A stretch of DNA of 64,000 bases from NCBI GenBank assembly GCA_019359095.1, contig JAHHHZ010000027.1, positions 1 through 64,000 on the forward strand, read 5' to 3'. Under the pieces are notes generated by a model, which saw nothing but the letters and a program-made list of their open reading frames with translations, made no database searches and had not been told where the DNA came from. Each line of letters starts with the position of its first letter. Position 1 is the first letter of the stretch. The stretch is from Pleurocapsa minor HA4230-MV1. GTDB taxonomy: Bacteria; Cyanobacteriota; Cyanobacteriia; Cyanobacteriales; Xenococcaceae. Shown here piece by piece: positions 15,712-20,582 of the stretch. The position numbers and the translations under genes are program-made.

Positions 15712-15800
15712 GATCCTGACATCCTCCCGACTCTGATTGCTACGCAATACAAAGCGGGGTTCCCAACTCAACCACCAAACTTATCCAACAAGTTTTCACT
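15712..15800 (-). ncRNA. Candidate TnpB guide RNA (omega RNA) 3' scaffold
   Basis: TnpB guide RNAs derive from the transposon right end and overlap the tnpB 3' end. Here the hairpin ATTGC-GTA-GCAAT and terminal GTCGGGAGGATGTCA lie directly after the stop. A second version at 98-127 keeps the same hairpin with paired changes (ATGC/GCAT), supporting a structured RNA. The 5' limit is unknown and may lie well inside the tnpB gene. The guide would be the adjacent flank, starting around 15711 and reading leftward. Confidence 0.45.
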
Positions 15801-16952
15801 TATCGAACAGAGGTTCAAATGTCCTTGGGCGTTCATTCGGGAGTGTCCCCCCCTACTCAAATGTTCCAATCCTTTTGCCAAAAGATTACGACTGGCGTTT
15901 TCGTCCCTGTCGAGAATACAACCGCACTCACAAGCGTGGGTTCTTTCAGACAAAGACTTGAGGACAATTCGATGGCAAGAACTGCATTCTTGGCTGGTGT
16001 ACTGAGGTGGAACAGCAATGACAATTTTGCCAAATACTTGTCCATAATATTCCAACCACTCAAAAAACTGTCTCCAAGCCGCGTCACTTATACTGTTGGC
16101 AAGACGACGATTCTTGACCATATTACGCACCATCAGTTTCTCGAACACCACCAAATCATTAGATTTGACCACGCATCTTGCCAATTTCACGGCAAAATCT
16201 TTACGCTGGCGCGAGACTTTAAGGTGCTTTCTTCCCAGTTTGTTAATTGCTATCTTTCGTTTGTTAGAACCTTTAACCTTGCGACTTACTTGTTTTTGCA
16301 GACGTTTAAGAGCTTTTTCCGATTTTCTCAGATGACGAGGATTTTCAACTTTGTTCCCTTGATTGTCGGTATAGAAGTGTATCAACCCAACATCAAGAGC
16401 AATTACTTGCTCGGCTGGTTCGACGAATTCAAGTCGGTCAATGGCAACACAAAATTGAGCGTAATACCCGTCTGCTCTACGCACAACTCGAACTCTTTTA
16501 ATTTGTTCAGGTTGATAGTAGTTGAGATCGTTTGCCCCAATCATGCGAAAACTACCAGCCTTAAAACCATCCGTGAAAGCGATAGATCGTCTATCCTCAG
16601 AGAGTTTATAGCCAGTAGTTTTGTATTCAACAGAGCGCGATTTTTTGAATCTGGGATAACCTTTTTTCTTGATAGCTGAATTTTTACAGTTGTCGTAGAA
16701 ACGCTTAATTGCAGCCCACGCTCGTTCGGCAGATGCTTGACGCGCTTGAGAATTAAGCTTTTTTGCCCATTCGTATTCTTTAGCCAACACAGCACAGAGA
16801 GCAGACAGATTGTATTGTCCGACACCGCGATTGTCCATCCAATGCCGAATACAACTATTTCTGACAAAACCAGCCGTGCGAATCATCTCGTCAATGACCG
16901 CAAACTGTTTTGTCGAACCTCTGAGCTTGGCTTCAAGTACTAACAAGACCAA
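15768..16952 (-). CDS. tnpB: RNA-guided endonuclease TnpB (IS200/IS605 OrfB)
   Basis: 394-residue TnpB. RuvC residues are readable: Asp187 in IALDVGLIHFYT, Glu271 in VVFEKLMVRNM and an aspartate at 348/350 in LDRDENASRN. The zinc finger uses CSSC (323, 326) and the CECGC cluster (341-345). The N-terminal domain has RNSCIRHWMDN and the helix RQASAERAWAAIKRF. In the family, TnpB cleaves DNA guided by RNA from the element's right end, next to a short transposon-associated motif, and so promotes element retention. All catalytic positions are intact and the frame is unbroken. Confidence 0.93.
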   Translation of the reverse strand: MVLLVLEAKLRGSTKQFAVIDEMIRTAGFVRNSCIRHWMDNRGVGQYNLSALCAVLAKEYEWAKKLNSQARQASAERAWAAIKRFYDNCKNSAIKKKGYPRFKKSRSVEYKTTGYKLSEDRRSIAFTDGFKAGSFRMIGANDLNYYQPEQIKRVRVVRRADGYYAQFCVAIDRLEFVEPAEQVIALDVGLIHFYTDNQGNKVENPRHLRKSEKALKRLQKQVSRKVKGSNKRKIAINKLGRKHLKVSRQRKDFAVKLARCVVKSNDLVVFEKLMVRNMVKNRRLANSISDAAWRQFFEWLEYYGQVFGKIVIAVPPQYTSQECSSCHRIVLKSLSERTHACECGCILDRDENASRNLLAKGLEHLSRGGHSRMNAQGHLNLCSISENLLDKFGG

Positions 16953-18076: not shown

Positions 18077-19300
18077 TCAGGTCTTTTTATCTAAGCGTGC
18101 TGCTGATTCAAGTGCTGCTTTGTTTCTGGCTCTTTGAGCATATTGCTTGAGGTGTTCAATATCTATTCCGCTGAGAATGCTTAAATCTTCTAATGCTATA
18201 CCTCGCATTAACATCTCCACACACCAAGTCTGCCGTGCTTGCTTTATTCCAGGAGGCTCTCCTTGAGGAGTAAGCAGATCGCTAGTTAGATTCCGCCAAA
18301 TTGCCTGTAGCTCTGCTGCATTCATAGCTTCACCTACATCATTGATAAAAATTGCCGCCTGTTCATCCTTACGGCTTTTTAACCATTGAATTAAGGGATT
18401 AATAGTACTTGAGCCGTAGCGAAAACCCATAACCCATTGATTAAGGGGAACTTGTCGTTCATGGCCATAATTTACCTGAAGAAGATGCTGCTGTGGTTCT
18501 ACGATAGAATGCGATCGCTCTAAATGCAAAACTTCAACTAAAGATAAACCCGAGCCAAACAGGACATAGATCAGAGCGTATTCTTGCTTGCCTGTTCTCT
18601 TGGCTTTTTTAAATAGCGATCGCACTAAACTAGCAGGTAAATCAGCGATTTCTGCTGGCTCAACTTTGACAATACTAGTTTCCGTTACTCTAGAGGTGTC
18701 TGAAGTAAAAGAACCCTGTAAAAATAAAGTTACTAAAGTATCGAGAAAGTTGTTGTGATCTGTCCAGTAATTATAGTCTTCTGTACTTGATTCGACGATG
18801 AAATAGCCAATTAGCGAGAAATTAAAGAGATTAACGATTTGTTCTGGGGTTAAATCGCTGGATAAGTTTTCTTTGGCGATCGCTTGTTCTAGATACTGCG
18901 CCACATAACGATTTGCCTCACTCAAGCCTTTACCTAACGCGATCCTATTTTCAACAGGGTAATTACCTGCTTCTCCTATAATAGAACGAACTAAATCGGG
19001 TGCTTTATTTAAAGTTCGTAAGCTTTCTTGCGCGTATTCTTGTAAAAAGTCGGCTACGTTATCTTCAGCATTCGCCTGTTCTACAAGAGCGTGAACTAGT
19101 TTAGCAAAGACCGCTGAATCTTGAATTACGGCTAAAAGCAAGCGGTACTTGTTGCCAAAATTACGAAACAATGTTACCTCATTCACCTGAGCGCGTTCGG
19201 CGACGGCTTTGGTGGTAGTTTCCGTTACTCCTCTTTCGGCAAATAAATCTAGAGCTGCTTCAATTAGACGTGCTTTGGTGGATTTTCGCGGAGTAGACAT
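18077..19300 (-). CDS. TetR-type regulator fused to a degenerate tyrosine-recombinase-like domain
   Basis: 407 residues, about twice a normal TetR. Residues 1-60 are a TetR helix-turn-helix (KARLIEAALDLFAERG, then TTKAVAERAQVNEVTLFRNF). Residues 60-195 are the ligand/dimer region ending in NFLDTLVTLFLQG. Residues 225-395 resemble a phage-integrase catalytic domain: YVLFGSGLSLVEVLHLE (box I, catalytic Arg replaced by Ser253), YGHERQVPLNQWV, then IKQARQTWCVEMLMRGI (Arg356 kept, His to Lys353), and LKQYAQRA (Tyr387). Loss of key residues argues against recombination and for a DNA-binding or dimerising role. It is divergent from desC, which it may repress through the palindromes at 19517 and 19564. 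Confidence 0.8.
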   Translation of the reverse strand: MSTPRKSTKARLIEAALDLFAERGVTETTTKAVAERAQVNEVTLFRNFGNKYRLLLAVIQDSAVFAKLVHALVEQANAEDNVADFLQEYAQESLRTLNKAPDLVRSIIGEAGNYPVENRIALGKGLSEANRYVAQYLEQAIAKENLSSDLTPEQIVNLFNFSLIGYFIVESSTEDYNYWTDHNNFLDTLVTLFLQGSFTSDTSRVTETSIVKVEPAEIADLPASLVRSLFKKAKRTGKQEYALIYVLFGSGLSLVEVLHLERSHSIVEPQQHLLQVNYGHERQVPLNQWVMGFRYGSSTINPLIQWLKSRKDEQAAIFINDVGEAMNAAELQAIWRNLTSDLLTPQGEPPGIKQARQTWCVEMLMRGIALEDLSILSGIDIEHLKQYAQRARNKAALESAARLDKKT

Positions 19301-19516: not shown

Positions 19517-19533
19517 TGTAAGTACCGCTTGCA
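19517..19533. promoter_or_regulatory. Operator-like palindrome 1 upstream of desC
   Basis: TGTAAG-N5-CTTGCA: TGTAAGTACCGCTTGCA. It shares both half sites exactly with the site at 19564-19580 and overlaps the proposed -35 element. Likely target of the divergent TetR-type regulator; this is inference from position and symmetry. Confidence 0.65.
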
Positions 19534-19557
19534 TTGTCAAAAATAAATTGTTACACT
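19529..19557 (+). promoter_or_regulatory. Candidate sigma-70 promoter of desC
   Basis: TTGCAT (19529-19534), 17-bp spacer, TACACT (19552-19557). Predicted transcription start near 19564, giving a leader of about 175 nt. The -35 overlaps palindrome 1, and palindrome 2 begins at the predicted start site, a classical repression geometry. Confidence 0.5.
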
Positions 19558-19563
19558 GAGATA

Positions 19564-19580
19564 TGTAAGCGACACTTGCA
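19564..19580. promoter_or_regulatory. Operator-like palindrome 2 upstream of desC
   Basis: TGTAAGCGACACTTGCA, same TGTAAG-N5-CTTGCA architecture as 19517-19533, with different spacer bases. The centres are 47 bp apart. Confidence 0.65.
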
Positions 19581-19739: not shown

Positions 19740-20582
19740 ATGACACAGCAATTGATTGCTCCCAAGAGCCAGATATCGGCTCAGCCAGAAGAAAAACTAC
19801 AGCTATGCTGGGTAAACATTATTTTCTTTGGTGCTTTTCATGTAATTGCCTTATCCGCACCCTGGTTTTTCTCGTGGTCTGCTTTAGGAGTAGCAATTTT
19901 CTTCCACTGGCTTACTGGTAGTATCGGTATTTGCTTGGCATATCACCGTATTTTGACTCACCGCAGCTTGGAAGTTCCCAAATGGCTAGAACGAATTCTA
20001 GTTACCTTTGGCGCACTAGCATTACAGGGTGGCCCGATTTTCTGGGTAGCAGGACATAACCTACACCATGCTCATACAGAAGATAATGACAAAGATCCCT
20101 ACTCAGCAAAGAAAGGTTTTTTGTGGAGTCATATGGGTTGGTTAATGTACAAGCAAGACAAGTATTTTGACTACGATCAGTATAAAAAGAATGCACCCCG
20201 TGTCGATAGAGATCCCTACTACCGTTGGTTAAACAGCAACTTTATTCCCCTACAAATTGCTTTAGGTCTTGCTCTATATGCTTTAGGTGGTTGGTCTTGG
20301 GTTATTTACGGTGTCTTTGTTAGAGCCGTAACTCTATGGCACTGTACTTGGTGTGTCAATAGCGCAACTCACTTCTGGGGTTATAAAAACTTTGAATGTG
20401 AAGATGGTTCGCTTAATCTTTGGTGGGTTGGTATTATAGCTTACGGCGAAGGCTGGCATAATAATCACCACTTCAATCCCCGCGTAGCTAAAGCTGGTCA
20501 ACGCTGGTGGGAAATCGATGTGACTTGGTGGGTAATTCGAGTATTACAGGTTCTCGGGTTAGCTAAAAAAGTCGTGTCTTAA
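19740..20582 (+). CDS. desC: Acyl-lipid delta-9 fatty acid desaturase
   Basis: Introduces the first double bond into membrane-lipid acyl chains using ferredoxin. The 280-residue membrane protein has the three histidine boxes of the di-iron centre: HRILTH (His69-His74), HNLHH (106-110) and HNNHH (240-244). Sequences around them (THRSLEVPKW, HAHTEDNDKDPYS, GEGWHNNHHFNP) are typical of DesC. It has a long leader, a candidate promoter at 19529-19557 and twin palindromes, so transcriptional control by the divergent TetR-type protein is likely. Confidence 0.95.
   Translation: MTQQLIAPKSQISAQPEEKLQLCWVNIIFFGAFHVIALSAPWFFSWSALGVAIFFHWLTGSIGICLAYHRILTHRSLEVPKWLERILVTFGALALQGGPIFWVAGHNLHHAHTEDNDKDPYSAKKGFLWSHMGWLMYKQDKYFDYDQYKKNAPRVDRDPYYRWLNSNFIPLQIALGLALYALGGWSWVIYGVFVRAVTLWHCTWCVNSATHFWGYKNFECEDGSLNLWWVGIIAYGEGWHNNHHFNPRVAKAGQRWWEIDVTWWVIRVLQVLGLAKKVVS

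Follow-up and report, generated by a model that had tools for sequence, protein, structure and literature searches.

A TetR-type regulator fused to a degenerate tyrosine-recombinase domain adjoins a fatty acid desaturase gene in cyanobacteria

Genes and predicted operators at the locus

We analyzed 64,000 nucleotides of the Pleurocapsa minor HA4230-MV1 genome (contig JAHHHZ010000027.1, positions 1 to 64,000; hereafter the window). A minus-strand gene at 18077..19300 encodes a protein of 407 amino acids that is a TetR-type regulator fused to a tyrosine-recombinase domain. The open reading frame begins with ATG, has no internal stops, and ends with a stop codon included in these coordinates. The helix-turn-helix (residues 12-58; 19127..19267, minus strand) matched TetR_N (PF00440) with an E value of 1.2e-13 and 51.1 bits against a cut-off of 24. 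The ligand/dimerisation region that follows (residues 59-200; 18701..19126, minus strand) matched the Pfam families TetR_C_13 and TetR_C_11, both below their own cut-offs, and is predicted to be helical across residues 64-197. When compared using Foldseek, the model of the full protein matched several TetR proteins, with TM scores by target length of up to 0.76. These included FadR with stearoyl-CoA (3whc; TM 0.76 by target length), which was not the top match by E value. A variable linker of low identity (residues 201-216; 18653..18700, minus strand), modeled with a pLDDT below 50 at residues 202-215, leads to the degenerate recombinase domain (residues 217-407; 18080..18652, minus strand), which was recognized by Pfam, profile, and fold. 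This domain contains a strongly conserved block (residues 282-312; 18365..18457, minus strand) with the family pattern RQVP.NQW..G.RYGS...NPL..WLKSRKD. The core-binding domain of active tyrosine recombinases is absent, and the N-terminal half of the fusion is TetR.

The divergent neighbor of the regulator (19740..20582, plus strand; PF00487, E value of 1e-19) encodes a DesC-type fatty acid desaturase, the presumed target of regulation. Its third histidine motif, HCTWCVNSATH, appears closer to the HFTWFVNSATH of DesC1 and DesC2, as given in the portion of PMC4390868 consulted, than to that of DesC3. The only NCBIfam match of the desaturase was to a DesA-family model, at 102.5 bits against a cut-off of 400. 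The source genome encodes one further desaturase of this type elsewhere (47% identical). On the other side of the regulator, an ORF at 15768-16952 (minus strand) resembles, by eye, an IS200/IS605-type TnpB, with Cys pairs near its end; of the 128 loci compared below, 3 include a homolog of this ORF in the sequence retrieved.

To compare loci, we used a set of 128 (L035-L162) that were picked by similarity of the regulator and not by neighbor, some of which represent one locus from two sources. A desaturase homolog adjoined the regulator gene in 126 of the 128, on the opposite strand and 0-576 bp away. The exceptions were L066, whose retrieved sequence contains no desaturase, and L102, in which remnants of both genes are adjacent. 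Genome G047 differs in that both genes share a strand, with the regulator gene upstream, and two operators still precede the desaturase gene.

Two predicted operators lie between the genes of the window. O1 (TGTAAGTACCGCTTGCA; 19517..19533, plus strand) is a palindrome that is conserved among the loci, and O2 (TGTAAGCGACACTTGCA; 19564..19580, plus strand) lies 47 bp from O1, close to where transcription is expected to begin. A -35-like TTGCAT (19529-19534, plus strand) is supplied by the right end of O1, and a -10-like TACACT (19552..19557, plus strand) lies 17 bp beyond it. By chance, 0.14 operator matches with at most one mismatch would be expected in the window. We then examined the intergenic regions of the 126 desaturase loci and the window, one of which was lost to an overlap filter, leaving 126 strings that reduced to 120 distinct ones. 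At least two TGYAAGTNNNACTTRCA palindromes (up to two mismatches) were present in 119 of these 120, whereas a single palindrome occurred in 8 of 2,400 shuffled controls. The spacing of O1 and O2 was 46-48 bp in 93 of 112 distinct cores (identical cores merged). Throughout the family, the right end of O1 gives a -35-like TTGCAN, and by a simple pattern, a -10-like TA was located 18 bases past the end of O1 in 84 of the 112 cores. This arrangement corresponds to a 17-bp spacer and therefore places the start of O2 near +1. In a generic promoter scan, the -35-like and -10-like elements of the window fell below the threshold and were not listed; each of these hexamers matches the consensus at four of six bases.

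In the 5.6-Mb source genome, the exact pattern TGYAAGYNNNRCTTRCA occurs twice, both times at the regulator/desaturase locus. Among 59 genomes of the class, exact sites were detected in all 33 with the regulator (30 matching at an E value of 1e-40 or below, including the TetR-only G024, and three TetR-only genomes of family f19), compared with 2 of 26 without it; four of the 33 are thus TetR-only. Nine of the 59 genomes contain a reversed control pattern. For 22 of the 30 genomes that match at this threshold, the sole two sites form one pair 42-51 bp apart, and the remaining eight have one site (three genomes), more than two (four), or two far apart (one). The suggestion made in a preliminary description of this DNA, that the protein represses a lipid gene, gains comparative support from the conserved adjoining desaturase gene and operator pair.

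We observed two further motifs. An operator-like site, TGCAAGCTTCACTTGCA, is located away from the desaturase gene in two related TetR-only genomes (G004:C1:1386247-1386263 and G029:C7:94482-94498) and is possibly a further target. A TACTGTAAC-like motif (at most one mismatch) was found within 60 bp after O2, at variable distance, in 38 of 119 loci and in 6 of 1,190 shuffles.

Ancestry, fold, and active site of the C-terminal half

Residues 226-391 matched Phage_integrase (PF00589) with an E value of 1.6e-6 and 28.5 bits, above the curated cut-off of 27.1, and the C-terminal 197 amino acids searched alone scored 30.8 bits. Of 46 family C-termini, including that of the window, 37 matched PF00589 at an E value of 0.01 or below, and no other Pfam family appeared among the matches listed. 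A profile built from the 46 relatives and searched against the PDB matched XerA (4a8e; E value of 2.9e-10), Tn1549 Int (0.0011), and XerD (approximately 0.004). The C-terminal half (197 residues, 46 sequences) was modeled by AlphaFold2 with a pLDDT of 95.5 and a pTM of 0.90, and the top Foldseek match of this model was XerA (5hxy; E value of 1.4e-9). A second aligner superimposed the model on the same structure with a Z score of 20.3 (176 residues aligned, rmsd of 3.7), followed by XerH (17.4) and by Tn1549 Int, Cre, and lambda Int (approximately 15-16). The phage repressors MrpR/YopR (8a0a and 8bpz) and SroF (9rd5) scored 12.2-13.3. Helical folds can give unspecific Z scores below approximately 13, and the top matches exceed this value. 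Collectively, the sequence matches and the predicted model indicate that the C-terminal half is a tyrosine recombinase by ancestry and fold. It shares both with XerA, XerC, and XerD but, unlike them, has neither a core-binding N-terminal domain nor a complete active site. We also considered a chance likeness to integrases; the Pfam match above cut-off, the profile match, and the fold rule it out.

To map the active site, we aligned the domain with integrases encoded in the same genome and an Xer-like protein of another cyanobacterium; one control row (L247) was disregarded because it represented the wrong ORF. In the window copy, the box I Arg corresponds to Ser253, the box II His to Lys353, and the box III His/Trp to Ile379, and the catalytic Lys of the beta-hairpin aligns to a shortened loop. 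The box II Arg (Arg356) and the terminal nucleophile (Tyr387) are kept. Four of the six positions of the catalytic set Arg-Lys-His-Arg-His/Trp-Tyr are therefore lost. Relative to active enzymes, the segment preceding Tyr387 lacks one residue, so the equivalence of Tyr387 to the nucleophile depends on a gapped alignment.

The loss extends to the family. Across the 46 sequences, position 253 is Ser in 30, Thr in 7, Arg in 1, and another residue in 8; position 353 is Glu in 27 and another residue in 19; position 356 is Gln in 28, Arg in 12, and another residue in 6; and position 379 is Trp in 17, Cys in 9, and another residue in 20. Position 387 is Tyr in 40, Phe in 4, Leu in 1, and Cys in 1. Judged by these alignments, the catalytic set is dismantled across the family, while the fold is retained. 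The preliminary description had read the protein as a TetR helix-turn-helix and ligand region upstream of an integrase-like C-terminus, with Ser253, Lys353, and Tyr387 at the box I, box II, and terminal positions, and had considered strand cleavage unlikely. The domain order is borne out by the PF00440 and PF00589 matches, the residue map by the integrase alignment, and the doubt about cleavage by the family-wide loss. The recombinase fold that it anticipated, with the Arg and His replaced, was recovered, and PF00589 was the only Pfam family among the matches listed for the C-termini.

Several basic residues outside the catalytic set (Arg282, Arg294, Arg310, Lys311, and Arg390) are kept in 40-45 of the 46 sequences. 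The domain is only mildly basic (median net charge of +2 and pI of 8.5, compared with a net charge of -1 to +11 and pI of 6.7-10.0 in five active control recombinases), and its calculated charge is not decisive either way as to DNA binding. Among 60 homologs, mean pairwise identity was 0.77 in the helix-turn-helix (residues 8-58), 0.51 in the ligand region, 0.10 in the linker, and 0.55 in the recombinase half, where the 282-312 block reached 0.75, near the level of the helix-turn-helix. Asp404, close to the C-terminus, is invariant. In seven close pairs, the dN/dS of the recombinase half was 0.06-0.12, with dS high to saturated in several of them (above 1 in five of the seven). The best reading of these comparisons is that the recombinase half is under purifying selection and is kept for a non-enzymatic job.

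As a side observation, the source genome has 23 Phage_integrase matches at an E value of 0.001 or below, several of them clustered (C18, C29, and C14).

Distribution of the fusion and its TetR-only relatives

The preliminary description had proposed looking for the same TetR N-terminus and C-terminus in other cyanobacteria, and the combination is present there: 123 of the 128 fetched loci encode the full-length fusion. In a whole-protein search of the class, 211 of 388 genomes had a match at an E value of 1e-10 or below, a count that includes TetR-only matches. Among the matches listed, nearly all span from residue ~1-10 to 404-407, with 37-84% identity. In a separate draw over the phylum, the C-terminal profile matched 45 of 386 genomes at an E value of 1e-6 or below; 41 of these matches were strong (1e-61 or below) and four were weak (G004, G029, G481, and G626). 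The one weak match inspected of the four (G004) proved to be a typical Xer-like protein that retains its catalytic residues. Searching the genomes of 84,980 species with three short peptide patterns confirmed 348 relatives. Among the best 80 of these 348, all titles but one are cyanobacterial, with Hyellaceae, Pleurocapsa, and Myxosarcina records as the nearest named relatives. The exception (L098), titled Candidatus Gracilibacteria, carries the regulator at 62% identity with the desaturase gene adjoining and is probably a mis-binned cyanobacterial contig.

We also asked whether the family has a phage or plasmid source. No relatives of the C-terminus were detected among 50,697 phage records, and 11 viral-contig stretches yielded no confirmed relative. 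Thirteen plasmid records matched the whole protein, one of them at full length. A phage or plasmid source was rejected on these grounds. The full-length plasmid copy (L197) lies on pP742403 of Gloeothece citriformis PCC 7424 (NC_011730.1) in the same divergent desaturase/regulator pair. This plasmid is typed as mobilizable, and the pair is near genes for an orange carotenoid protein N-terminal domain and an ssl1498-family light-harvesting-like protein. A longer fusion of 528 amino acids, with one operator found, was present in another genome (L234; G010:C71, 1434-3020, minus strand). In three draft genomes (L231, G291; L232, G297; L233, G216), the TetR and recombinase parts are in different frames, which may reflect disrupted or split genes or faults in the assembly.

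TetR-only genes were found beside the desaturase gene in ten loci: eight of family f19 (G004, G029, G043, G068, G079, G091, G101, and the broken G111), G226, and G024. G004 and G079 are possibly Synechococcus JA strains. Left out of these ten are G220 and G273, whose ORFs leave the contig end, and the three genomes with split frames. Seven of the ten loci (G004, G029, G043, G079, G068, G091, and G226) have one operator at up to two mismatches, cases that stem from only two families (f19 and f37). The other three (G101, G024, and G111, in which the TetR gene looks broken) have two operators 47-49 bp apart. Two fusions (G192 and G010) were found with a single operator at up to two mismatches. 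Since TetR-only relatives keep the desaturase gene and the operator or operators, the recombinase half is not indispensable. Since some TetR-only loci have two operators and two fusions have one, the recombinase half does not explain the pairing, and a tie between the two is unsupported.

A tree of the TetR part was built by a quick method, and 24 of its 47 inner branches were weakly supported; on it, at least three switches between fusion and TetR-only are needed. G226 and G024, the latter together with G220 (entered as TetR-only), sit within starred fusion groups, and because of this nesting they look like losses of the recombinase half. The tree does not distinguish acquisition from loss for f19. 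The fusion is also present in G047, possibly Gloeobacter kilaueensis, and in G013, which shares its genus code. If G047 is assigned correctly, the fusion occurs in the deepest cyanobacterial branch.

A proposed repressor and its alternatives

Our preferred model, to which we assign a probability of about 0.6, is that the fusion is an autoregulated, single-target repressor of the DesC-type acyl-lipid desaturase gene, in which the dead recombinase half contributes DNA contact, dimer joining, or both. Dimers of the TetR half would bind O1, which covers the -35 element, and O2, close to where transcription of the desaturase gene would begin. Occupancy of both sites would shut off the desaturase gene and probably the regulator's own gene. 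By analogy with DesT, FadR, and MadR, a fatty-acid-derived ligand would release the dimers. The C-terminal half, derived in this model from an Xer-like tyrosine recombinase whose active site was lost, most likely adds DNA contact and/or links two operator-bound dimers, the linking being through the protein-protein contacts used in recombinase assembly. The 46-48 bp spacing of the operators could be explained by promoter geometry alone. The TetR-only loci that retain two operators at almost unchanged spacing, together with the two single-operator fusions, speak against simple bridging by the recombinase half. A bolder version of the model, which we consider rather unlikely, holds that the dead recombinase halves of the two bound dimers interlock like protomers of a synaptic complex, so that the desaturase promoter is clamped between O1 and O2. 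The domestication would then be ancient and already in place in the cyanobacterial common ancestor, given the presence of the fusion in G047 and G013 and if G047 is G. kilaueensis.

The recombinase half might instead be a protein-interaction or sensing module that makes no DNA contact and either docks a partner, such as a membrane sensor or acyl carrier protein, or stabilizes the TetR dimer. The dismantled catalytic pocket, the location of the 282-312 block outside the catalytic boxes, and the lack of an extra DNA motif beside the operators in most loci are consistent with this possibility, as is the contact with TniQ reported for the partial recombinase domain of TnsF in the portion of PMC10293859 consulted. 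However, the five conserved basic residues would equally suit a DNA surface, and MrpR binds DNA with most of its catalytic residues lost, according to the part of PMC10516654 that we consulted. We regard such a module as possible, if on the unlikely side. Less probable still is that the regulator activates the desaturase gene or acts in both directions rather than repressing it. Divergent gene pairs are common for activators too, and FasR, an activator by its NCBIfam name, is among many weak TetR matches; the placement of O1 over a -35-like element and of O2 from near +1, however, would block RNA polymerase.

Could the C-terminal half be a functionless passenger of an accidental fusion that persists by inertia? 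The TetR-only forms nested among fusions (G024 and G226), and also those of f19, would suit this explanation, but we consider it quite improbable: the recombinase half is more conserved than the ligand region (0.55 compared with 0.51), and together with the low dN/dS this identity hardly fits passenger status. The near-helix-turn-helix conservation of the 282-312 block and the invariant Asp404 close to the C-terminus also speak against a passenger. We give almost no credence to the idea that the domain is a still active recombinase working on the operator pair. The two inverted-repeat sites and the retained Tyr387 and Arg356 of the window copy recall such an enzyme, whereas the loss of four of six catalytic positions follows a family-wide pattern, and 6 of the 46 sequences have replaced Tyr387 with Phe, Leu, or Cys.

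Dead recombinases are already known as DNA-binding regulators. MrpR (YopR), the master repressor of the Bacillus prophage SPbeta, has a tyrosine-recombinase fold with its recombinase function lost, and its authors expect further repressors of this kind (PMC10516654, consulted in part). The fold is common to MrpR and the fusion (Z scores of 12.2 for 8a0a and 12.7 for 8bpz), with the repressor role of the fusion being our interpretation. MrpR is a prophage protein for which the consulted part of that paper mentions no TetR half, whereas the fusion adjoins a host lipid gene; DNA recognition by the fusion falls most simply to the TetR helix-turn-helix. In TnsF of Tn6022-like transposons, an inactivated tyrosine-recombinase region preceded by zinc fingers is reused for target recognition (PMC10293859, consulted in part). 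Like the fusion, TnsF, as described there, carries such a region in a multidomain protein; unlike the fusion, it is a transposon target selector and not a transcription regulator, and part of its catalytic domain is left.

DesT of Pseudomonas aeruginosa and MadR of mycobacteria regulate desaturase genes in response to acyl-CoAs, and MadR is released by saturated acyl-CoA (PMC8872791, consulted in part). Their likeness to the fusion lies in a desaturase gene as the target, a presumed one in the case of the fusion. DesT is a TetR protein, and we know of no recombinase domain in DesT or MadR. In the literature searched, which lacks most subscription papers, we came across neither a TetR-recombinase fusion nor a TetR repressor of cyanobacterial desC.

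Our results suggest that a DNA-cutting enzyme has been co-opted as one half of a lipid regulator. A recombinase would thereby have been domesticated into a host metabolic regulator across much of a bacterial class, with a likely target and sites that can be read from the genome. The finding opens two testable questions, namely how DesC-type desaturases are controlled in cyanobacteria and what use a recombinase fold has once cutting is lost. The natural TetR-only versions at the same operators offer a ready-made control.
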